Of a stretch of 64,000 nucleotides of DNA, positions 8,403 through 41,276 are shown in pieces. The notes under the pieces are model-generated. The model worked only from the letters and a program-made list of their open reading frames with translations, did no database searches and was not told the DNA's origin. Source of the stretch: Pseudolactococcus hodotermopsidis (GTDB taxonomy: Bacteria; Bacillota; Bacilli; Lactobacillales; Streptococcaceae); NCBI RefSeq assembly GCF_011170085.1, contig NZ_BLLI01000002.1, positions 1 through 64,000 on the forward strand. Direction: 5' to 3'. The translations under genes and the position numbers were made by a program. Position 1 is the first letter of the stretch. Each line of letters starts with the position of its first letter.

Positions 8403-8419
8403 ATGCTTGACATGAGCAT
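8403..8419. promoter_or_regulatory. Putative operator 1 (ATGCTY-N5-GAGCAT) overlapping the -35 box
   Basis: ATGCTT-gacat-GAGCAT: 6-bp half-sites 5 bp apart. Similar palindromes occur at 8453-8469 and 9317-9333 in front of the next two genes. The arrangement suggests autoregulation by the Nudix/winged-helix protein encoded here. The assignment of the binding protein is inference. Confidence 0.55.
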
Positions 8420-8435
8420 TTTATTTCGTTATAAT
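8407..8435 (+). promoter_or_regulatory. Promoter of the Nudix regulator gene
   Basis: TTGACA (8407-8412), a 17-nt spacer and TATAAT (8430-8435). The -35 box is embedded in a palindrome (8403-8419), as expected for a repressor-controlled promoter. Confidence 0.85.
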
Positions 8436-8452
8436 TAATTTATCAAAAACAT

Positions 8453-8469
8453 ATGCTCAAAACGAGCTT
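8453..8469. promoter_or_regulatory. Putative operator 2 in the Nudix gene leader
   Basis: ATGCTC-aaaac-GAGCTT lies between the predicted transcription start (about 8442) and the ribosome site AAGGAAA. Confidence 0.55.
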
Positions 8470-8485
8470 TTAAGGAAACCTAAAC

Positions 8486-9274
8486 ATGCCAACATTTTCA
8501 AGCAAAAAAGAAGAGAGACATCACTACGAACACCATGCGACAGAAAAAGAATTTCTTGCTTGGTACGCCAACCAAGAGCTAAAAACCTACGAAACACCGA
8601 GTGTCACGGTTGATAACGTCATCTTTGCCTACAATCCTGACACCAACCGCGTCAATCTGCTCCTGATTCAGCGCAAGGCGCACCCTTATCTGCATCATTG
8701 GGCGCTACCTGGCGGTTTTCTCAATAAAAACGAGGACACAACGCAAGCTGCTATTCGCGAGGTTTTTGAGGAAACACAGGTCAAGGTTGACCACCAGTTT
8801 GTTGATCAGCTTTGCACTGTTGCAACACCCAACCGCGACCCGCGCAGTTGGATTGTTACTGTCGCTCATCTCGTTTACCTGCCGACGCTGCCACAAGCTA
8901 CCGCTGGTGATGATGCGGCAAATGCTAAATGGTTTGATTTCAGCGTTGATTCACAAACGAATCAAATTCATATCTCAGATATACCTGATAGCCAAATCGC
9001 TTTTGATCACCTAGAGATTTTAAATACAGCAGTCAAGCGGATTCAAGGCAGATTTGATTACAAACCTGAATTTCTGAACGTATTACCTGAATTTTTCACA
9101 CTCAAACAAGTTCGCAACCTTTACGAACAATTCAAAGGTAGCACAGAAATTAGTCTCAAACATTACAATCTCAAGCGCAATCATGCTGAATATTTGGAAC
9201 AAACCGATGCAGTTGTCCAAGGGGAACGTGGGAAACCACAGCGATTATTTAAACTAACATCACGACATTTGTAA
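8486..9274 (+). CDS. Nudix-domain protein with C-terminal winged helix (NrtR-like NAD regulator or ADP-ribose pyrophosphatase)
   Basis: 262 residues. An N-terminal Nudix domain (about 35-165) has a nearly complete Nudix box: GX5E (77-83), then REVFEE (91-96), with Gln at 98 where Gly is usual. The C-terminal part (about 185-262; LKHYNLKRNHAEYLEQTDAVV) resembles the winged helix of NrtR regulators, which sense ADP-ribose and control NAD salvage and biosynthesis genes. Location directly upstream of nadV and three palindromes around the two genes support a regulator. Because the catalytic Glu residues are kept, it could also hydrolyse ADP-ribose; which role dominates cannot be told from sequence. 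Confidence 0.8.
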   Translation: MPTFSSKKEERHHYEHHATEKEFLAWYANQELKTYETPSVTVDNVIFAYNPDTNRVNLLLIQRKAHPYLHHWALPGGFLNKNEDTTQAAIREVFEETQVKVDHQFVDQLCTVATPNRDPRSWIVTVAHLVYLPTLPQATAGDDAANAKWFDFSVDSQTNQIHISDIPDSQIAFDHLEILNTAVKRIQGRFDYKPEFLNVLPEFFTLKQVRNLYEQFKGSTEISLKHYNLKRNHAEYLEQTDAVVQGERGKPQRLFKLTSRHL

Positions 9275-9316
9275 CATATAGAACGCCTGAAATGGCGTTA
9301 CTATTATCATTTTAAA

Positions 9317-9333
9317 ATGCTCAAATTGAGCTT
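9317..9333. promoter_or_regulatory. Putative operator 3 upstream of nadV
   Basis: ATGCTC-aaatt-GAGCTT, 5-bp spacer as in the two upstream copies, 22 bp before the nadV start. No strong separate promoter is evident in the short intergenic stretch. Confidence 0.5.
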
Positions 9334-9355
9334 ATATAGAAAAGAAGGACATATC

Positions 9356-10750
9356 ATGACAAAACAAAACCCAATTCTCAACACCGATGCTTACAAAATG
9401 ACCCACCATTTGGCTTATCCCGACGGTTTGAGCAAGCTTTATTCTTATGCTGAACCGCGCAAAGGCGGACGTTTTGAGACTGTCAGTTTTTTTGGCTTGC
9501 AAATGCTCATTCATGACCATTTTCTCATGCCGATTACAACTGAGATGATTGATGAAGCTGAAAAAACAGCTGAATTAACTTTTGGCACGACCGATTATTT
9601 CAATCGTCAAGTTTGGGAGAAAGTGCGTGATTTGGGCTATTGGCCAATTAAAATCAAAGCACTTCCTGAAGGCATGGAAGTTCCCGTTGGCAATGCGTTA
9701 TTCACAATTGAAAGTACCGAACCTTGGTTTGCAACCACACTTAATTCCCTTGAAACGCTTCTCATGCAAGTCTGGTATCCGACAACGATTGCGACAAATA
9801 GTCTGTACATCAAGCGGGATTTGCAACCATTTTATGAGCAAACAGGGCATATTGAGAACCTCCCTTGGGCGGTCAATGATTTCGGCTTACGTGGTGTAAC
9901 AAGTCTACAAGCGGGCGAACGCAGTGGCGCAGCTCATCTGCTACATTTCCGCGGTTCAGATAATATGGCAGCAACACATGCGATTGCTGAAATTTATGGT
10001 TTGGCGGGTCGTGGCATGTCAGTTTGGGCGACGGAACATTCGGTTGCAACAAGTTATGGTGCGGGTCAAGGCGAGTATGATTATCTCAATGCACAGCTTG
10101 AGCGCTCTGATGAAAACACGACGATTTCGATTGTCATTGATTCTTATGACACTTACAATTTCATTGACACCGTTATTGCTTCGCCTGAGATTAAGGCAAA
10201 AATTCAGGCACGAGCTGGACGGATTGTCTTTCGTCCTGATTCTGGCGATGCGATTGAGATGCCGATGGCTGTGATTGAACATCTTGACAACGTTTTCGGG
10301 CATACATTGAACACCAAAGGCTACAAGGTTTTAAACGATAACATCGGCGTGATTCAAGGCGACGGCATGAAACGTGAGACAATTGCAGCACTTTATAGCC
10401 GTGTAACTGAGGCTGGTTGGTCAGCGGATAATATCATCGTTGGTTCTGGCGGCGGGCTACTTCAGGAAAGTTTTAACCGCGATACACAGCGTTTTGCAAT
10501 CAAGGCATCCTACGCTGAAAGAGCTGATGGCACAACTTACAGCATGCAAAAAAATCCTAAAACGGACAGCAGTAAAGCAAGTAAGGCGGGCTTACTGAAA
10601 GTTGTCACGCATAACGGCAAAATTAAAACGATTTGCTCGCAAGCAAGTGATGATGGCGAAAGTGATGATCTTATGCGTCTTGTTTATGACAATGGTGCTT
10701 ATTATCCTGAAAATTTTGAGGTAATTGTCACACGAGCTGAAACATTTTAA
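9356..10750 (+). CDS. nadV: Nicotinamide phosphoribosyltransferase NadV (NAMPT type)
   Basis: Makes nicotinamide mononucleotide from nicotinamide and PRPP for NAD salvage. 464 residues from this start. The N-terminus (LNTDAYKMTHHLAYPDG) is NAMPT-like. DFGLRG (175-180), GERSGAAHLLHFRGSDN (about 187-203) and the His-containing WATEHS (H228) build the active site, and RPDSGD binds PRPP phosphates. I start at MTKQNP because AGAAGG lies 7 nt before it; the open frame extends 13 codons further up through the palindrome. It follows the Nudix gene in the same orientation and is probably controlled with it. Confidence 0.9.
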   Translation: MTKQNPILNTDAYKMTHHLAYPDGLSKLYSYAEPRKGGRFETVSFFGLQMLIHDHFLMPITTEMIDEAEKTAELTFGTTDYFNRQVWEKVRDLGYWPIKIKALPEGMEVPVGNALFTIESTEPWFATTLNSLETLLMQVWYPTTIATNSLYIKRDLQPFYEQTGHIENLPWAVNDFGLRGVTSLQAGERSGAAHLLHFRGSDNMAATHAIAEIYGLAGRGMSVWATEHSVATSYGAGQGEYDYLNAQLERSDENTTISIVIDSYDTYNFIDTVIASPEIKAKIQARAGRIVFRPDSGDAIEMPMAVIEHLDNVFGHTLNTKGYKVLNDNIGVIQGDGMKRETIAALYSRVTEAGWSADNIIVGSGGGLLQESFNRDTQRFAIKASYAERADGTTYSMQKNPKTDSSKASKAGLLKVVTHNGKIKTICSQASDDGESDDLMRLVYDNGAYYPENFEVIVTRAETF

Positions 10751-10762
10751 GTCAAAAAATAG

Positions 10763-10805
10763 AAAACTTGCATGAAATCAATGGCTGACTTCATGCAAGT
10801 TTTTA
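10763..10805. terminator. Bidirectional terminator between nadV and acp
   Basis: A perfect 14-bp stem AAAACTTGCATGAA / TTCATGCAAGTTTT with a 13-nt loop, T-rich on both sides. The acp stop codon lies inside its right edge. Confidence 0.85.
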
Positions 10806-11051
10806 ATGTAACTTTCCAAAAACGTAATCTACCGCCTGACCCAAAGTCAAGATAGTTTCAGCATCTTCATCTGAAATTTCAATGCCAAATTCGTCCTCAA
10901 GTGCCAAGGTAAATTCCATCAAACTGATAGAATCTGCGCCCAAATCGGAAACGATATTGGTAGCAAGTGTTACATTATCAGCCTCAAGTGTCATCGTTTC
11001 GACTAAATTATTTTTGATTTTGATGAAAAGTTCGTCTTTGGTGATAGTCAT
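10803..11051 (-). CDS. acpP: Acyl carrier protein (plsX-linked)
   Basis: 82 residues. Carries acyl chains on a phosphopantetheine attached to S41 in GADSIS (the canonical motif is DSL; here Leu is Ile), followed by [21 protein letters not shown], the usual helix II recognition region. It overlaps the plsX stop by 4 nt (ATGA) and probably supplies acyl-ACP to PlsX, at the entry to phospholipid synthesis. Such plsX-linked ACPs are commonly a second copy besides the one in the fab cluster. Confidence 0.92.
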
Positions 11052-12064
11052 TGATTTTCCTCCCGATAATGTGTCTTCAAACTAGTAACAACCTCAGTTT
11101 CCAGCATTTTACGGGTTTGTTTGATTGTTGCTAAAATCGCATCAGCATTTGACGAACCATGACTTTTGACGACTGGCGCTTTAAGACCAAAAAGAACCGC
11201 ACCGCCAGCTTTTTCATAGTCTAAGGCATCTTTTAAATGATACAAAGATTTTTTCATCAAAACAGCACCGATTTTCGACCTGATACCACCAGTGTTGATT
11301 GACATTTTCAGTTGTTTCATCAAATTTTCGGCAGTGCCTTCGATTGATTTGAGTACGGCATTACCAGTGAAACCGTCAGCCACAACGACATCTGCGACAC
11401 CACTCAGCAAATCACGCGCCTCGACATTACCGATAAAGTTCAAATTTTTGTCCGCAGCGATCAACTCATAAGCCTCTTTTTGTAATGGCGCACCTTTGCC
11501 AACCTCAGAACCATTGTTCAAAAGTCCAACACGTGGCTTTTTGATACCTCTGACCTCTTCAGCATAAAAACTACCTATAACAGCGTAATTATGCAGATGA
11601 CGAGCAGTGTTCTCAGCATTTGCGCCAAGATCCAACATATCAAATCCCTTACCATCCAAAGTCGGTAGCGTTGACATGAGCCCAGGGCGCTCAATTTGCT
11701 TAATCCGACCAACAACAAAAATCCCGCTAGCCAGTAGCGCGCCAGTGTTACCAGCAGAAATCATCGCATCAACCGTACCATCTTTGACAGCATTCGCCGC
11801 CATAACCATGCTTGACGTTTTCTTTTGACGTATCGCTCTGACAGGGTCAGTCTCACCAGAATCAATCTTTTCAGTCGTGTGAACAATAATAAGGTTGTGG
11901 TTTTCTTCTGGAAAATAAGGGCGAATTTTCGTCTCATCACCGAATAAGGTAAATTGAATATCCGGAAACTGTTCTAGCCCCATTTTGACAGCTTCGACAA
12001 CAGACTGTGGCGCAAAATCGCCACCCATAGCATCAATTGCTAATCTCTTTTTCATTCTTTTCAT
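11048..12064 (-). CDS. plsX: Phosphate acyltransferase PlsX
   Basis: Converts acyl-ACP to acyl-phosphate for PlsY in phosphatidic acid synthesis; membrane-associated. Family start [14 protein letters not shown], then [12 protein letters not shown] and [11 protein letters not shown]. The open frame runs up to 12136, but the promoter lies inside it: TTGAAA (12099-12094), 17-nt spacer, TATATT (12076-12071). The predicted first base of the transcript is the A of the ATG at 12064, so the mRNA may be leaderless. The ATG at 12055 (MKKRLAID, the usual family start) is the alternative; neither has a good Shine-Dalgarno sequence. It is coupled to acp downstream. Confidence 0.92.
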
Positions 12065-12070
12065 TCTAAT

Positions 12071-12099
12071 AATATACCATATTTTGCAGTTTTTTTCAA
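12071..12099 (-). promoter_or_regulatory. plsX promoter giving a predicted leaderless transcript
   Basis: TTGAAA, 17 nt, TATATT, then only six bases before ATG 12064. Confidence 0.65.
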
Positions 12100-12166
12100 T
12101 TATATGACAAGTATGACGGTTTGTAATCTTTTTCACAAGAGAATGACACTAAAATAACTAATTATT

Positions 12167-14143
12167 TCAATCATTTTTGATAAAAATTTCCGTCATCTTC
12201 CCTCGAATCAGTAAGTTAAATCTCAGCGATTTGATGGCTTTCGGCAAATGATTGCTTGTTTTGATTTGTCCGTTTTCAAGTTGCAGACCAGCAAAACCAT
12301 AAATCAAGCCAAGCCATGAGCCACCCATATTAGCGGCATGAATACCGTGACTGGCATTGCCTTGCCGATCATCCAAATCCATCGTCGCAGCAGCTTTGAA
12401 AAAGTCATAAGCCTGTTCATTGCGATCAATCTTACTTGCAACGACACCATAAACTGCACGGGAAAGCGAGCTATCATGCGTTGTCAATGGTTCATAGAAA
12501 TCGTAATCACGCGCAATTTGTTCTTTCGATTCTGAAAATAACATGTGAGCTAAAATTGTATCCGCCTGTTTTAAAACTTGATGTTTATAGATTTTCATCG
12601 GATGATAATGCAACAAAAGCGGATAGTTTTCAGTCGGTGTTTTGTCAAATTCCCACGGTTCTTTATCAAGAAAACTATCGTCTTGTTGGGTAAGTTGGCG
12701 TTTTTCATCATAGCCAAAATACATCTTGTTTGCTGCGGTTGACCATTTTAACGCCTCATCCAAATTCTCATCAAATCTGACAGCAAGTTTGGCAGCATAA
12801 TAAAAGGTATTTTGCACCATTTTATTGGTATAAAAATTATTATTGACAAGCGCTGTGTATTCATCTGGCCCTGTCACTTCGTGAATCTCAAAGCCACGCG
12901 CACTCATAAAGCCATAGCTCATCCAAAATCTCGCGATTTCATAGATAACCTTGCGATTTTTAGCAATGAAATCAGCGTCCCCAGTCACATTATCATAAAG
13001 CTCAAAAGCATAGGCAATGTCAGCGTTAATATGCAGTTGCGCCGTGCCAGCGGGATAGTAGGCAGACGTTTCCTCTCCGTTAATCGTGCGCCAAGCAAAG
13101 AGCGCGCCCGCAAACTCAAGTTCAGCCGCCCGTTTCTGCGCTTGGGGCAAAATGTTAGCGCGAAAAGTCAGCAAAGACTTAGCAATCTCAGGCTGCGTGT
13201 AGATAAAAAACGGCAACAGATACATCTCCGTATCCCAAAAATAATGCCCCTCGTAACCCTCGCCAGTCAAACCTTTCGCCGCAAAATTCGTGTGACCATC
13301 ACGCCCAGCCGAGTTAAACAAGTGATAGAGATTGAACCGAATCCCTTTTTGGAGCTTATCATCGCCTACGATTTCAATATCAGAACTCGCCCAAAAGTCT
13401 TTGAAAATGGCGGTTTGTTGCATTTTTAAGGTGTCATATGTCACATCGGAAAAATCATTTAGCCGTGATAAGTGATAAAGTTGCGTGAACGTGAAAGTCT
13501 GACTTTCCGCCAACGATAACGTCTCATCAAAATCATCAAATTTAACAAAAAGGTCAAGCTGACTATTTTTCGTCCGATAACGATTGCCAGAAATCTGCAA
13601 ATCTGCACTAGATTCCTTCAAGCGTGGATCAAATTCACTAATGCCCTCAGGCTTGATATGCCTCGCTTTCTTGCCAATTTTGACAGCACCCGAAAAATTC
13701 AGCGCTGTTACTGAAATTTTCTGCGCATAAACCGCACGATTGGCATGACTTGCCAAACTCTCCAAATCAATCTGAATTTTCTTGCCCGACTTTGTCGCAT
13801 AACGATAAGATTCTGATAAAATACCAGTTGCCATCTCTAAACGCAAGTCTTGCTCAAGCAAGCTAAACTCACTTTCACCGTCAATCGCAATTTCAATCGT
13901 CCGCAAGTCAAACAACTTGACCATGGTCTGATGATTTTTGGCATAACCATAAGCATTTTCGCCATAAACAATCTCGTGACTTTCATAAAAACCATTGATA
14001 AAACTACCAGGACTACTCTCAGTAGACGGTATCGGCAAACTCGCCCGCACACCTAAAATACCATTTGCCTGTGCAAACAAAGTCTCAATATTTTGCGCTG
14101 ACGTATTGCCCAAATCAGCTAAAGTTAATGTAAAATCGGTCAT
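12167..14143 (-). CDS. GH65 family disaccharide phosphorylase or hydrolase (second paralogue)
   Basis: 658 residues. Family members split alpha-linked glucose disaccharides with phosphate to beta-glucose-1-phosphate and glucose. N-terminal beta-sandwich (about 1-250), then an (alpha/alpha)6 barrel. The general acid is E428 in GPDEYT, and the phosphate-binding His-Ser-Ser is at about H556-S559 (TTHDSSLS), so phosphorolysis is likely. GHYFWDTEMYLLPFF matches the substrate-site motif. It is about 115 residues shorter than its neighbour at 17694-20018 and has the GPDEY rather than the maltose-phosphorylase-like context, so it probably prefers another linkage (kojibiose, nigerose or trehalose type); this cannot be settled here. 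AAGGAG precedes the ATG. Its leader holds repeat copy A, and a MITE sits just upstream. Confidence 0.85.
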   Translation of the reverse strand: MTDFTLTLADLGNTSAQNIETLFAQANGILGVRASLPIPSTESSPGSFINGFYESHEIVYGENAYGYAKNHQTMVKLFDLRTIEIAIDGESEFSLLEQDLRLEMATGILSESYRYATKSGKKIQIDLESLASHANRAVYAQKISVTALNFSGAVKIGKKARHIKPEGISEFDPRLKESSADLQISGNRYRTKNSQLDLFVKFDDFDETLSLAESQTFTFTQLYHLSRLNDFSDVTYDTLKMQQTAIFKDFWASSDIEIVGDDKLQKGIRFNLYHLFNSAGRDGHTNFAAKGLTGEGYEGHYFWDTEMYLLPFFIYTQPEIAKSLLTFRANILPQAQKRAAELEFAGALFAWRTINGEETSAYYPAGTAQLHINADIAYAFELYDNVTGDADFIAKNRKVIYEIARFWMSYGFMSARGFEIHEVTGPDEYTALVNNNFYTNKMVQNTFYYAAKLAVRFDENLDEALKWSTAANKMYFGYDEKRQLTQQDDSFLDKEPWEFDKTPTENYPLLLHYHPMKIYKHQVLKQADTILAHMLFSESKEQIARDYDFYEPLTTHDSSLSRAVYGVVASKIDRNEQAYDFFKAAATMDLDDRQGNASHGIHAANMGGSWLGLIYGFAGLQLENGQIKTSNHLPKAIKSLRFNLLIRGKMTEIFIKND

Positions 14144-14158
14144 CTAAAATCTCCTTAT

Positions 14159-14221
14159 CTGAACTTCAAGCTAACTTTCTAGGAAAGTTTGCGACTATGG
14201 CGCACCGCTTTTCAGTATCAT
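14159..14221 (-). repeat. Leader repeat, copy A
   Basis: Read on the minus strand it runs from ATGATACTGAAAAGCGGTGC through GCGCCATAG to a hairpin AACTTTC-cta-GAAAGTT and ends at the ribosome site of the GH65 gene. It is highly similar to 48452-48523 and related to 34004-34094. Confidence 0.75.
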
Positions 14222-14230
14222 AATATATAA

Positions 14231-14365
14231 GGGCATCTCTAAAAACTCAGATTTCCCAAATTTTGCGTCAATCCTCCTAGCCTTGCACCAGCAAGCCGTC
14301 GTCGAATTTTCTTGCGGTTAAAAAATCTATCTAAAATTTGGAAAAAGCAGTTTTTAGAGATGCCC
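14231..14365. mobile_element. 135-bp MITE (MITE-1), 17-bp perfect terminal inverted repeats
   Basis: The ends GGGCATCTCTAAAAACT and its exact complement (14231-14247 / 14349-14365) are flanked by ATAA on both sides (14227-14230, 14366-14369), a likely 4-bp target duplication. The similarity between the ends continues imperfectly for about 35 bp. No coding capacity. Size, ends and duplication are those of a non-autonomous element moved by a DDE (IS5-like) transposase, not encoded in this window. It sits 10 bp upstream of leader repeat A and so in the promoter region of the GH65 gene. Confidence 0.75.
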
Positions 14366-14380
14366 ATAACCAGAAAAAAA

Positions 14381-14507
14381 GGCTGGAACAAAAGTCGAAA
14401 ATTAGCAGAATTTAGCTAACTATAAAATAGATAAACCGCATAAAATCAACGTTTTCAAAAAACGAATTTTATGCAGTTCTTCTATTTTTGAAACTTTTGT
14501 CCCAACC
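14381..14507. repeat. Large imperfect palindrome / terminator-like structure after the importer operon
   Basis: The outer arms GGCTGGAACAAAAGT (14381-14395) and ACTTTTGTCCCAACC (14493-14507) pair with two G-U type exceptions. An inner stem (GCATAAAATcaACGTTTT around 14438-14455 with AAACGaATTTTATGC up to 14474) pairs around a short loop. It lies directly after the permease stop and probably ends or stabilises that transcript. Apart from this, the MITE and repeat A, the 372-bp gap between the permease and GH65 genes holds nothing I can identify. Confidence 0.65.
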
Positions 14508-14515
14508 TCATTTCC

Positions 14516-15352
14516 TTACTTTTCACCATCCATCCGAACACCTTGTAAGAAATATTTATTAAACAAGATATACAAGATGATAATCGGTACAATCGAAATA
14601 ATACTCGCTGGCATAATCTGATCCCAACGTTGCCCCGCATTTTGCGACTTAAAGGTCTGCAAACCAAGGGTCAGCGTATATTTTGACGGCGTTGTCATGT
14701 AAAGCATCGGTTTCAAGAACTCATTCCAAAAGCCCATAAAGACAAAGACAGCTTGCGTGGAAATGCTCGGCTTAGCCAATGGCATAACAATCCTGAAAAA
14801 AGTCGCTGTCTTAGACAAACCATCAATCGTCGCCGCCTCCTCAACATCTTTAGGAAAACTAAGGAAAAACTGGCGCATCATAAAGATATTGCCAAGGTTA
14901 ATGGCAGCAGGCAAGATAAGTGCGGTAAAAGTATCTTTCATGCCAAGGCTTGAAATAATCAGGTAATTAGGAATCAGCAGAACTTGTCCAGGCACCATCA
15001 TCAACGCCAACATCGCCCAGTAAATCCGATTGCGCCCAGGATAATTAATCCGAGCCAGTGAATAACCCGCCATAGTATTCAAAAACAGATTAATCGCTGT
15101 ACCAACAATTGACACAATCACCGAATTGACAAACCAATGTGTGAAATTGTCACTGCGCCCTAAAATATAGGCATAATTTGCTAGCGTAAATTTCCCGCCA
15201 AAGATATTCATGCCACCCGACACGATTTCTTTCAAAGGCTTAAAACTCGCCGCCACCGCCCAAATGAAAGGATAAAATGTAATCATCGCATAGCCAATCA
15301 AAATCACATAAAGCAACACTTTGAGCGCAAGTTGTGTTTTCGTTTTTTTCAT
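14516..15352 (-). CDS. ABC sugar importer permease, MalG family
   Basis: About 278 residues with six predicted membrane helices. The EAA loop EEAATIDGLSKTATFFRIVMP contacts the ATPase. Start chosen at MKKTKT (15352): GGAGG of the upstream gene end lies 8 nt before it, and the upstream stop TAG ends 1 nt before it. The longer frame from 15367 would absorb that ribosome site. It pairs with the MalF-type permease and the binding protein upstream. No ATPase gene is present, so a shared MsmK/MalK-type ATPase elsewhere in the genome is implied. Confidence 0.9.
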   Translation of the reverse strand: MKKTKTQLALKVLLYVILIGYAMITFYPFIWAVAASFKPLKEIVSGGMNIFGGKFTLANYAYILGRSDNFTHWFVNSVIVSIVGTAINLFLNTMAGYSLARINYPGRNRIYWAMLALMMVPGQVLLIPNYLIISSLGMKDTFTALILPAAINLGNIFMMRQFFLSFPKDVEEAATIDGLSKTATFFRIVMPLAKPSISTQAVFVFMGFWNEFLKPMLYMTTPSKYTLTLGLQTFKSQNAGQRWDQIMPASIISIVPIIILYILFNKYFLQGVRMDGEK

Positions 15353-15353
15353 C

Positions 15354-16256
15354 CTATTTTCCTCCATTTAATTTTTCAGCAATTCGACTGACAATGAAGA
15401 TGATAATCGCAAGGACAACCGCAAGCGCTGCAGCAAAGCCCATTGTCGGCATTTGTCCAAAAGCGTTTTGATAAATCAGCAAGCTCAAAGTCAAGGTTGA
15501 ATTGTTCGGCCCACCGCTACCATTACTGAAAATGTAGGCTTGGTCAAACATCTGAAAAGTCCCGATAATTCCCGTCAAAATCACATAAGTCGTAATCGGT
15601 CGCAGATAAGGAATCGTAATAAAACGCAATTTCTCAAAAGCGTTAGCGCCGTCGATCTCCGCTGCCTCATAAAGCGAATGCGGCAAATCAACTAATGACG
15701 CCAGATAAATTGTCATAAAATAAGGCACAGTTGACCAGATATTCATCGCCATGATGACTTTCAGAGCATATTGTGGTTCTTGCAGAAAGTTAATCGGCGA
15801 CTGATACAGCCCCAAACCAATCAGAAAATCGTTAATCGGGCCATTGATATTGAACAAAAACATGAAAATAATCGTCAAGGCGCTTGAGCTAGTCAAGGTC
15901 GGCAAGAAATAAATCAGACGAAAAGCCTTTTTCCCCTTGACATCACGGCTAGCAAGGACGTATGCCATAACAAGCGAGATAATCGTCTGAAGTGGCACAA
16001 CAAACAAGGCAAACAAAGCCGTATTTTTCAGCGCAATCAAACTGCGTGGATCCTTGAAAATATTAAGATAATTGCTAAAATTATTCCAAGTATATTTGCC
16101 TGTGAATAAATCAACTTTATTAAATGACAGATAAATGGCAAATAAAACTGAAATAACTGAGAATACGAGTAAAACCAATATTGCTGGCGCAATAAAAGCG
16201 TAACCTTGCAACATCTCATTTAACTCGCGTTTTGATTTTTTGACTTTTGTAGCCAT
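15354..16256 (-). CDS. ABC sugar importer permease, MalF family
   Basis: 300 residues, six predicted membrane helices, EAA loop YEAAEIDGANAFEKLRFITI. Partner of the MalG-type permease, which starts right after its stop. AAGGAGG precedes the ATG. It is separated from the binding-protein gene by a 163-bp gap holding a strong hairpin and two palindromes, an arrangement that usually lets the binding protein be made in excess over the permeases. Confidence 0.9.
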   Translation of the reverse strand: MATKVKKSKRELNEMLQGYAFIAPAILVLLVFSVISVLFAIYLSFNKVDLFTGKYTWNNFSNYLNIFKDPRSLIALKNTALFALFVVPLQTIISLVMAYVLASRDVKGKKAFRLIYFLPTLTSSSALTIIFMFLFNINGPINDFLIGLGLYQSPINFLQEPQYALKVIMAMNIWSTVPYFMTIYLASLVDLPHSLYEAAEIDGANAFEKLRFITIPYLRPITTYVILTGIIGTFQMFDQAYIFSNGSGGPNNSTLTLSLLIYQNAFGQMPTMGFAAALAVVLAIIIFIVSRIAEKLNGGK

Positions 16257-16304
16257 ATACTCCTCCTTGAGAATGGATTGGGACCGCCCAAATTTTTGTT
16301 AGAA

Positions 16305-16331
16305 CAGATAAGGGAGTCGAACCCTTATCTG
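16305..16331 (-). repeat. Stem-loop between binding-protein and permease genes
   Basis: A perfect 10-bp stem CAGATAAGGG / CCCTTATCTG with a 7-nt loop that reads TTCGACT on the transcribed strand, like a tRNA T-arm. There is no T run after it, so it looks like an mRNA-stabilising or partial-attenuation hairpin rather than a full terminator. Confidence 0.7.
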
Positions 16332-16343
16332 CTTGTCAGACAA

Positions 16344-16392
16344 ATGCTCATAGCGAGCATTACATCAAGTCGTTAAAGCTCAACGCGAGCAT
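16344..16392. repeat. Two ATGCTC-N5-GAGCAT palindromes in the importer operon
   Basis: 16344-16360 is a perfect ATGCTC-atagc-GAGCAT, and 16376-16392 is AAGCTC-aacgc-GAGCAT. Same half-sites and spacing as the three copies around the Nudix-nadV genes. Inside a transcribed gap they could also act as small RNA hairpins. Confidence 0.6.
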
Positions 16393-16419: not shown

Positions 16420-17697
16420 TTATTCCGCCTTATCAATATCATCTTGCGCTTGTTTATCAGCTTTCTTCATTGCATCTTCAAGTGATGATTTCCCGTCCAC
16501 AACTTCTGGCCAGTAGTTCATATAAGCGTTGTTAATCGTTGTCAAGCTCACGCCTTTTTGCCAAACAGTTGAGTAATCAACAGCTGCTAAGTGAATCTTA
16601 AGGTCTTCGTTTTTGTTAATGTCAGCCGTACTTGCCACATCTTCACGCGTTGGCAGTGTGCCAGTTCCATTGACCCACTGAGTCATGCCCGCAACGCCTG
16701 TCGCATACTTAATCCAAGCATCAGCGAGCGCCGAATTTTTCGTGCCAGCGTACTTGCCCCAACCAACTGAGAACATCATGCCGCCCTCTTCGCCCTTGTA
16801 AGTCTCCATTGGCGAAACAGAAAAGTTGATGTCTGAAAATTCAGTTTTCAGCGTTTGATAAACCCAGTTCCCCTCGTCCATCATGGCAATTTTGCCAGTA
16901 CCAAAAGCCTCACCATTCCAGCCAGCACCGATTTCTTGTGGCGTAACAACGGCTTTAGTGTCGACCAATTTTTTAAGAATTGACAAATTGTCAACAACTT
17001 TTTTATTGGCAAGATTTGGTGTCCCATCGTCCTTGATTGGCTCAGCACCATCACGCGCTGCCAAGTGATAAGAACGAGAAAGTTCGGCCGTGTAGCTCAT
17101 CGCCTTAACCTTATCTTTGCCATATTTGGCATCCAATTTAGCTTGGAAATCTGGCAACCAAGCCACTAATTCTTCATAAGAAGTTGGCACAGATTCGGGG
17201 TCAACACCGACCTCTTCAAAAATACCAGTGTTTTTATACAAAGCCAAAGTTGAAAAATCTTTTGGAATCGCATACAATTTATCGCCGTCTGAAAATGCTT
17301 TCGTCAGATTGTCATAATAAGCACTGGCATCAAACTCCCCCTTGTCAAGCTCCGCAAGCGCACCTTTGCTTGCCAAAAACGGATAGTAAGACGAATCCAC
17401 ATAAAAGGCATCTGGCGCCGTTTTACCAATCAAATCCGTCTGAATCTGCGTATTGTAATCCGTGTACGTTTTAAGGTCAACTTTCGCCCCTGTTTCCTTT
17501 TCAAAGCCAGCAATAACTTCTTTGAGCGATTTTTCCTCAGACTCATTGCCGCCCCAAACGCCAAGTTTCAGCGTTTTACCCTTGAAATCTGTGTCATCTG
17601 AACCAGCTGCATCATCTTTCTTACCACCACATGCGACAAGCGAAAGACCCGCCACCGCAACAGCACCAAAAGTTAAAACTTTTTTCCAATTTTTCAT
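16420..17697 (-). CDS. Sugar ABC transporter substrate-binding lipoprotein
   Basis: 425 residues. A lipoprotein signal peptide ends in SLVACGGKK (Cys about 23), then a family 1 solute-binding fold (LKLGVWGGNESEEKSLKEVI, FYVDSSYYPFLASKGAL, SFSVSP-type hinge regions). Captures the disaccharide outside the cell for the two permeases downstream. It overlaps the maltose-phosphorylase gene stop by 4 nt and has GGAGG before its ATG. Genome context (maltose phosphorylase, pgmB) suggests maltose or a related alpha-glucobiose as ligand. Confidence 0.9.
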   Translation of the reverse strand: MKNWKKVLTFGAVAVAGLSLVACGGKKDDAAGSDDTDFKGKTLKLGVWGGNESEEKSLKEVIAGFEKETGAKVDLKTYTDYNTQIQTDLIGKTAPDAFYVDSSYYPFLASKGALAELDKGEFDASAYYDNLTKAFSDGDKLYAIPKDFSTLALYKNTGIFEEVGVDPESVPTSYEELVAWLPDFQAKLDAKYGKDKVKAMSYTAELSRSYHLAARDGAEPIKDDGTPNLANKKVVDNLSILKKLVDTKAVVTPQEIGAGWNGEAFGTGKIAMMDEGNWVYQTLKTEFSDINFSVSPMETYKGEEGGMMFSVGWGKYAGTKNSALADAWIKYATGVAGMTQWVNGTGTLPTREDVASTADINKNEDLKIHLAAVDYSTVWQKGVSLTTINNAYMNYWPEVVDGKSSLEDAMKKADKQAQDDIDKAE

Positions 17698-20698: not shown

Positions 20699-20723
20699 TT
20701 TTATGTTCTCTCCTATTATTTTT

Positions 20724-20737
20724 CTAAAACGTTTTAG
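20724..20737. promoter_or_regulatory. LacI-family operator upstream of pgmB
   Basis: The perfect palindrome CTAAAACGTTTTAG, identical to 21395-21408. It overlaps the spacer and -10 of a weak minus-strand promoter (TTTACA, 17 nt, TAGAAA), so pgmB may also be started internally under the same repressor. Confidence 0.75.
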
Positions 20738-20754
20738 AATTTTTGTAAAAAATT

Positions 20755-24805: not shown

Positions 24806-25792
24806 TTAGATTGCTGCACTCTCTCGCACGACAATCTCATAACCAACAATCGTGTGTTTGATAATGCCTTTTTCGATATGCTCAATCACGTCCTTGGCTG
24901 CTGATTCGGCTATCGTTTTAACATCTTGATGAACCGTTGTAATCGTTGGGGTAAAATAACTTGTCAGCGTAATATCATCAAAGCCAACCACGGCAATTTG
25001 GGAGGCTAAGTCTAATTTTTTCAAGGCTTTCAAACAGCCTATTGCCATTAAATCACTTGCTGCAAAAATAGCGTCGTATATCGGCTTTTTCTCAGCTGAA
25101 AACAAGGCAAAAATTAGGTCAAATGCGACTTGCTCCCGAAAATCAGCAAAAATAACTGATGGTTTGGTCACAGACTTGCGGTAACCCGATTCACGTTCGT
25201 GTGACACTGCTGCCTTTCTGCCACCATTGACAAAAAGAATCTGATGATAGCCACTCGCCTGCAAGCGCTCCGTGACCTCGAAAGCAGCCGTTTCGTTGTC
25301 AATGCTAACCGTGCCAATCCGCTTGTTGCGAATGTTCATGTCAATCGCAACCGTCGGCAAAGTGAAATGCTCAAGCTCATGATAATAGGGGTCGGTCACG
25401 CGCAAACCTTGAATAATCACACCGGAAATGTTATGCTCGTCACAAAATTGGCGCAAGGTTTTATGCGCCTGTTTCTCGGTATTTGTCGCATAAAATACGA
25501 ACTCATAATCGGTCTTATCCAGATAATCAATCACGCCAGAAATGATTTCAAGGGGCATGGCAACCCCACGCGCAACATTGATTTCATTCAAAATCAGCGC
25601 AATCGTCTTTGACTTTTTGCTCGACAACTGGCGCGCCGCCGAGTTCGCCACATAACCCAAATCTTTCGCCGCCGTTTGCACCTTTTCGACCGTCGTCGCA
25701 CTCATATCGCTGTAACCGTTCAACACATGCGACACCGCGCTCACCGACACGCCAGCACGCGCCGCTACATCCTTTATCGTAATCTTTTTCAT
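24806..25792 (-). CDS. LacI/GalR family transcriptional regulator
   Basis: About 328 residues. N-terminal helix-turn-helix (TIKDVAARAGVSVSAVSHVLNG, about 4-25), hinge with NSAARQLSSKKSKTIALIL, then a periplasmic-binding-like effector domain (VVGFDDITLTSYFTPTITTV near the end). I start at MKKITI (25792), 18 codons inside the open frame. The palindrome CTAAAACGTTTTAG in front of the GH65 operon, in front of pgmB and, with one change, upstream of this gene makes it the likely repressor of that operon and of itself. The inducer is unknown. Confidence 0.88.
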   Translation of the reverse strand: MKKITIKDVAARAGVSVSAVSHVLNGYSDMSATTVEKVQTAAKDLGYVANSAARQLSSKKSKTIALILNEINVARGVAMPLEIISGVIDYLDKTDYEFVFYATNTEKQAHKTLRQFCDEHNISGVIIQGLRVTDPYYHELEHFTLPTVAIDMNIRNKRIGTVSIDNETAAFEVTERLQASGYHQILFVNGGRKAAVSHERESGYRKSVTKPSVIFADFREQVAFDLIFALFSAEKKPIYDAIFAASDLMAIGCLKALKKLDLASQIAVVGFDDITLTSYFTPTITTVHQDVKTIAESAAKDVIEHIEKGIIKHTIVGYEIVVRESAAI

Positions 25793-25809
25793 GCTCGAAA
25801 ACCTTTCTA

Positions 25810-25865
25810 ATTCTATCATATCACAGATTTTGTCAAATGGTAGCAAGAAAACTAAAACGTTTTAA
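25810..25865 (-). promoter_or_regulatory. LacI-gene promoter and upstream operator
   Basis: Minus strand TTGACA (25836-25831), a short 15-nt spacer, TAGAAT preceded by TG (25815-25810). The operator CTAAAACGTTTTAA is at 25852-25865, about 15 bp upstream of the -35, a position compatible with autoregulation through looping or with control of the divergent Abi gene. Confidence 0.6.
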
Positions 25866-40710: not shown

Positions 40711-40783
40711 TGCCCCCTGTAGGACTTGAACCTACGACCCATGGATTAAGAGTCCACTGCTCTACCAACTGAGCTAAGAAGGC
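40711..40783 (-). tRNA. tRNA-Lys (CTT anticodon)
   Basis: On the minus strand the cloverleaf is complete: acceptor GCCTTCT/AGGGGGC with two G-U pairs and discriminator A, D-arm TAGCTCAGTTGGTAGAGC, anticodon loop CTCTTAA (CTT = plus-strand 40748-40750), T-arm GTAGGTTCAAGTCCTAC. No CCA is encoded. Confidence 0.95.
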
Positions 40784-41032: not shown

Positions 41033-41225
41033 CAAAAAACACTGATTGAATGCCGGATACTCACTCCTGTATTGAACCCGCTGTTAATATAAACAGGTGG
41101 GCGTCGCGCTCCTACTAAGCTGCTTCCACCTAAAGTGGCTTGCATACCGTAGGATGTCTCAAAGACTCCCGAGGTAATACGATTTAGTCGGTCAAAAATG
41201 TGAGCAAGTTCGCACATTCCAGTGC
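41028..41225 (-). ncRNA. Structured RNA of about 200 nt, possibly 6S RNA (family uncertain)
   Basis: Reading left, the 5' end CACTG-GAATG pairs with the 3' end CATTC-aat-CAGTG, then GCTCAC with GTGAGT and TTGACC with GGTTCAA. Internal hairpins include GTCT-ttg-AGAC, CCAC-tttag-GTGG and CTGTT-tatatt-AACAG. The closing stem is followed by a T-rich run (41027-41039 on the plus strand), and a TATTAT -10 (41238-41233) lies 7 nt before the 5' end. No RNase P, tmRNA or SRP signatures. Size and the long closing stem fit 6S RNA, but the branched middle does not fit well. The overlapping open frame is not a gene. Confidence 0.5.
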
Positions 41226-41276
41226 TTTCTTTATAATACTATCTTATCATGAATTTTATTTTTTTGCAAATATTTT

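Follow-up and report, generated by a model that had tools for sequence, protein, structure and literature searches.

Predicted NrtR operators with an altered half-site at an nrtR-nadV unit of Pseudolactococcus hodotermopsidis, and two matching palindromes in a malE-malF gap

The NrtR repressor of Streptococcus binds DNA at genes of NAD salvage and is released by ADP-ribose, and the targets of the S. sobrinus protein are pnuC-nadR and pncB (PMC12735969). NrtR operators vary widely from group to group (PMC4666351). In Escherichia coli, an intercistronic structure in the malE-malF region keeps the malE RNA longer than that of malFG (PMC5927463). Here we analyzed a window of 64,000 nucleotides from P. 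hodotermopsidis (positions 1 to 64,000 of contig NZ_BLLI01000002.1), in which copies of a single palindrome occur both at an nrtR-nadV unit and in a malE-malF gap.

Our analyses confirmed that the window contains five ATGCTC-N5-GAGCAT palindromes, at 8403-8419, 8453-8469, 9317-9333, 16344-16360 and 16376-16392 (sites 1 to 5, respectively); the coordinates, the common half-sites and the 5-bp spacer given in a preliminary description of this DNA all proved exact. Site 4 is an exact copy, and sites 1, 2, 3 and 5 each carry one mismatch. In all five sites the spacer begins with a purine and ends with a pyrimidine, and thus the real half-site reads ATGCTCR-N3-YGAGCAT. Site 4 is the sole perfect match to this extended motif in the genome. 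Measured from center to center, sites 1 and 2 are separated by 50 bp and sites 4 and 5 by 32 bp, which corresponds to about three helical turns.

As a null model, we shuffled the window 60 times with a first-order Markov model and counted the members of any one family of 6-5-6 palindromes (at least 3 G/C in the half-site) that fell within 8 kb. Families never exceeded two members per 8 kb in 57 of the 60 shuffles and exceeded three in none, compared with the five members observed, which rules out a chance origin of the five-member family. The genome scan proposed in the preliminary description (2.3 Mb, at most one mismatch) returned 10 matches, not the hundreds that would point to a generic repeat, and five of these are the sites described here. 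By our own arithmetic, the expectation for random sequence at this threshold is 37/4^12 x 2.3 Mb, or about 5 per genome; the five further matches equal this number, and the remainder of the genome is therefore at chance. Specifically, four of the matches outside the window lie inside coding sequence and the fifth, on C20, is a poly-T terminator; among intergenic positions the best motif matches genome-wide fall in the window. An Rfam search gave no match at the palindrome sites. A generic or small mobile hairpin repeat would be in keeping with the location of four of the five sites in transcribed leaders or gaps, and similar hairpins (C20 and C57) do resemble terminators. However, we regard such a repeat as highly improbable, given that there are just these 10 genomic copies, that those outside the window occur at chance frequency and mostly in coding sequence, and that the likeness among the five copies stops a few A/T bases beyond the palindrome.

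The first three sites lie at the nrtR-nadV unit, which has the following features:

8403-8419, no strand: site 1, ATGCTTGACATGAGCAT, over the -35 box of the nrtR promoter
8407-8435, plus strand: nrtR promoter, TTGACA-N17-TATAAT, identical to the consensus at 12 of 12 positions
8453-8469, no strand: site 2, ATGCTCAAAACGAGCTT, in the leader, directly 5' of the nrtR ribosome-binding site
8486-9274, plus strand: nrtR, encoding 262 residues with a Nudix domain (46-152) and an NrtR winged-helix domain (197-257)
9282-9299, no strand: small hairpin, AACGCCTGAAATGGCGTT, in the nrtR-nadV gap
9317-9333, no strand: site 3, ATGCTCAAATTGAGCTT, in the nrtR-nadV gap, 5' of the nadV ribosome-binding site
9356-10750, plus strand: nadV, nicotinamide phosphoribosyltransferase, matching the NAMPT_N and NAPRTase families

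The product of 8486-9274 is an NrtR-family regulator, in which a Nudix domain and an NrtR_WHD domain are combined in the fold of Shewanella NrtR. Both Pfam models scored above their cut-offs, the Nudix domain (PF00293) with 60.2 bits against 21.1 and NrtR_WHD (PF21906) with 34.4 bits against 27. The narrow NCBIfam equivalog NF050029, which describes an ADPR-responsive repressor, scored 112.6 bits, below its 400-bit cut-off, and the protein is thus not placed in that equivalog. The AlphaFold model of the protein has a mean pLDDT of 89.6 and is weakest before and into the recognition helix, where the pLDDT falls to about 57 at residues 221 to 230. Structure comparison matched it to Shewanella NrtR in its free and DNA-bound forms (3gz5 and 3gz6; Z of about 21 over 203 to 205 residues) and to an Enterococcus homologue (2fml; Z of 27). 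The Nudix box, GFLNKNEDTTQAAIREVFEETQV, is near-intact, with a change of the final G to Q as the sole substitution, and thus the nrtR product may have an enzymatic role.

The preliminary description had placed site 1 over a -35 box, and this holds for a promoter that agrees fully with the consensus. Site 1 can alternatively be read as AAAATGCT-N7-AGCATTTT, with perfect arms of 8 bp. No promoter was found at site 3 in the nrtR-nadV gap. nadV lies directly 3' of nrtR, so that the regulator gene adjoins a gene of NAD metabolism, and sites 1 to 3 are arranged as for an autorepressor with control over nadV as well. Sites 1 to 3 are probably NrtR operators with a shifted specificity; the earlier reading of these sites as NrtR-type operators is well supported by the gene identity, the context, the promoter overlap, the 5-bp spacing and the absence of the motif elsewhere. 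Another, unlinked transcription factor might instead bind all five sites, since binding by NrtR is itself a prediction and sibling nrtR promoters lack the motif. We consider this quite unlikely, because the motif clusters at nrtR-nadV, palindromes with this spacing are found ahead of several nrtR genes and nrtR is the only regulator gene that adjoins the sites.

All close relatives found belong to Lactococcus, the nearest at the nrtR locus being L. reticulitermitis, L. raffinolactis, L. laudensis and L. chungangensis. Boxes like TAAAAGTA-N5-TACTTTTA precede nrtR in Listeria, Lactococcus plantarum, L. nasutitermitis, Vagococcus and Enterococcus. Their 5-bp spacing is common to the sites in the window, but the letters differ, AAGTA-N5-TACTT in these boxes versus TGCTC-N5-GAGCA in the window. 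The canonical AAGTA-N5-TACTT is absent at the nrtR gene of the window, and some related nrtR promoters are also devoid of an AAGTA box. In L. raffinolactis, L. chungangensis, L. laudensis and L. reticulitermitis the syntenic orthologue lies in a locus of the form rarA ... nrtR-plsX. The window protein is 68 to 70% identical to these orthologues over the Nudix domain and just 25 to 30% over the winged helix; NrtR_WHD is undetectable in them, nadV is missing, and the GCTC motif was not found at their nrtR genes. There is no phylogenetic footprint: in none of the genomes examined does orthologous non-coding DNA carry the motif. Taken from the sequences, these comparisons suggest that the specificity of the protein shifted in parallel with the letters of the operator.

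Four sibling Nudix proteins encoded at the nrtR locus kept the Nudix domain and have a shortened C-terminal tail with no recognizable winged helix. Loss of DNA binding is possible for these siblings, although a missing NrtR_WHD match is not proof of it: a sibling nrtR-pnuC protein also misses the model and keeps a winged-helix-like tail.

The pairing of nrtR with nadV was found at none of 80 loci in other genomes. Genes for NadV with 69 to 70% identity are present in four other Streptococcaceae, where they have other surroundings and no nrtR match at E <= 1e-30. The genome analyzed here also contains nadR, the product of which is 53% identical to the L. plantarum protein, and a pncB-like gene. 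With nadV and nadR, the route from nicotinamide to NMN to NAD is complete in this genome. Additional members of the regulon were considered and rejected: the 20 two-mismatch sites that were read with their surroundings are nearly all coding, the few intergenic ones include terminator C57, and neither nadR nor pncB carries a copy of the motif.

We consider it likely that an NrtR-family repressor acts on its own operators to repress nrtR and nadV, and that half-site and winged helix changed together. The gene identities, the fold, the promoter, the positions of the sites, the statistics and the spacing common to other nrtR promoters were observed directly; the binding of NrtR to these sites, the repression and the ligand were inferred. 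Points against this reading are the lack of a phylogenetic footprint, the score below the NF050029 cut-off, the absence of the motif from nadR and pncB, which are related to the usual streptococcal NrtR targets, the near-intact Nudix box, the low model confidence around the recognition helix, the failure to find a promoter at site 3 and the related nrtR promoters devoid of the AAGTA box. In the proposed mechanism, the product of 8486-9274 would bind the palindrome wATGCTCR-N3-YGAGCATw as a dimer. With NrtR on site 1, the -35 box of a single strong promoter would be blocked, and with NrtR on site 2 its early transcribed stretch; NrtR would repress itself and the co-transcribed nadV, and site 3 may provide a further block ahead of nadV. 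On breakdown of NAD, the Nudix domain would bind ADP-ribose or a related ligand and NrtR would be released, after which NadV would make NMN and NadR would make NAD. The half-site would have changed from AAGTA to TGCTC together with the winged helix, with the 5-bp spacing kept.

The other two sites lie within a set of sugar genes, pgmB-GH65-malE-malF-malG-GH65, on the minus strand:

14516-15367, minus strand: malG-like permease gene
15354-16256, minus strand: malF-like permease gene
16305-16331, minus strand: hairpin CAGATAAGGG-N7-CCCTTATCTG in the malE-malF gap, with a perfect 10-bp stem and a 7-nt loop
16344-16360, no strand: site 4, ATGCTCATAGCGAGCAT, the perfect copy, in the malE-malF gap
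16376-16392, no strand: site 5, AAGCTCAACGCGAGCAT, in the malE-malF gap, malE-proximal
16420-17697, minus strand: gene for a malE-like sugar-binding protein

The last two palindromes thus lie between the binding-protein and permease genes, as originally described. They are located downstream of malE inside a probable polycistronic unit, the promoter of which is near 20.7 kb, more than 4 kb upstream of them. At the probable start of the operon, upstream of pgmB, there is a perfect palindrome, TTCTAAAACGTTTTAGAA (20722-20739), which is likely the LacI-type operator that serves the GH65/malEFG operon. A gene of the LacI family is present at 24806-25846. A plasmid origin of the sugar operon was considered and rejected; the match to the pgmB-GH65 region of a raffinolactis plasmid was just 4%. 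The preliminary description had proposed that the palindromes link NAD salvage genes to a sugar importer. We could not establish this link: the motif occurs in none of the malE-malF gaps of 19 relatives (the orthologous operon, with MalE 79 to 80% identical, and 18 more distant ones), and no promoter was found on the malF strand at sites 4 and 5. Of that interpretation as a whole, the reading of sites 1 to 3 as NrtR-type operators stands, and the link to the sugar importer is not established.

Sites 4 and 5 may belong to an RNA structure that lets the binding protein exceed the permeases, in which case their likeness to the nrtR sites would be a coincidence or a local sequence copy. Consistent with this, a stable hairpin is present in the malE-malF gap of 19 of 19 Streptococcaceae relatives, with unrelated sequences, and the gap folds well, with z of -3.4 in the window and -2.6 in the closest orthologue. 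A precedent is the protective malE-malF structure of E. coli (PMC5927463), and the malF strand is without a promoter in the gap. However, the separate 10-bp hairpin at 16305-16331 could already serve this purpose, site 5 has no hairpin of its own in the predicted fold, and a perfect and a one-mismatch copy 32 bp apart are very unlikely by chance. Weighing these points, we find a role in RNA structure plausible, if somewhat short of an even chance. Indeed, the likeness of sites 4 and 5 to sites 1 to 3 exceeds what chance explains and is too good to dismiss; a structural RNA role for the gap is ordinary, yet it leaves the nrtR-site letters of the two copies unexplained.

Sites 4 and 5 could instead be NrtR operators, at which the bound repressor, as a roadblock or at an internal promoter, would reduce malFG relative to malE under NAD-rich conditions. 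This is suggested by the perfect match to the extended motif at site 4, by the separation of the pair by about three helical turns and by BtAraR, an NrtR-family protein of Bacteroides that controls sugar genes with tandem sites (PMC4666351). The orthologous gap and the 18 further gaps without the motif, the failure to find a promoter at the sites and the promoter region of the operon, near 20.7 kb, which has its own LacI-type palindrome and no close copy of the motif, argue against it, and we view this assignment as tentative and rather doubtful. For sites 4 and 5 we therefore slightly prefer RNA structure over operator function. That an operator-switched NrtR also holds the malE-malF pair, such that the NAD state tunes synthesis of permeases and phosphorylase independently of the binding protein, seems to us unlikely; if the pair were bound, NAD turnover would be tied to sugar import from within the operon.

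Several other features were noted in and around this region. On the minus strand, the hairpin at 16305-16331 contains GGGTTCGACTCCC, which has the look of a tRNA T-arm, probably by coincidence. In three Streptococcaceae the malE-malF gap is enlarged by long palindrome-rich stretches, and the gap seems to tolerate insertions. A large imperfect inverted repeat with 36-nt arms (81%), starting with GGGCATCTCTAAAAACT, spans 14228-14368; a similar end, AGTTTTTAGAAATGCCC, is found on another contig, which suggests a small mobile repeat. A second long inverted repeat, at 14372-14516, separates malG from the GH65 gene downstream of it. Elsewhere in the window, Rfam identified 6S RNA at 41035-41228 and a tRNA at 40711-40783.

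The window thus holds an NrtR-nadV unit of Lactococcus in which the half-site is one unseen in the nrtR promoters of its relatives, and presents a compact case for a joint change of operator and winged helix, in which siblings kept the Nudix domain and lost a recognizable DNA-binding domain. The NrtR proteins of S. suis and S. sobrinus have the Nudix and winged-helix architecture of the window protein and regulate NAD salvage, with DNA binding that ADP-ribose reverses (PMC12735969). For Streptococcus, the box in the literature is ATA-N-TTTA-N3-TAAAA-N2-ATA (PMC6800001), compared with TGCTC-N5-GAGCA in the window, and the partners of S. sobrinus NrtR are pnuC-nadR and pncB (PMC12735969), compared with nadV here. 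Closer in kind are the nrtR-(nadR)-pnuC loci of Lactococcus plantarum, L. piscium and L. nasutitermitis, which share the genus, the NAD neighbors and a promoter palindrome with a 5-bp spacer; they differ in the half-site (AAAAGTA versus ATGCTC), in the protein, which is about 37 to 41% identical, and in the locus. Shewanella oneidensis NrtR (3GZ5/3GZ6/3GZ8) is alike in the fold of both domains and, at about 30% identity, is a distant family member. BtAraR has the same architecture as the window protein, to which it is 24 to 26% identical, and senses L-arabinose. The structure between malE and malF of E. coli is likewise palindromic and lies between binding-protein and permease genes (PMC5927463), with an unrelated sequence; unlike those of E. 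coli, two of the malE-malF palindromes of the window match the motif found at nrtR-nadV.
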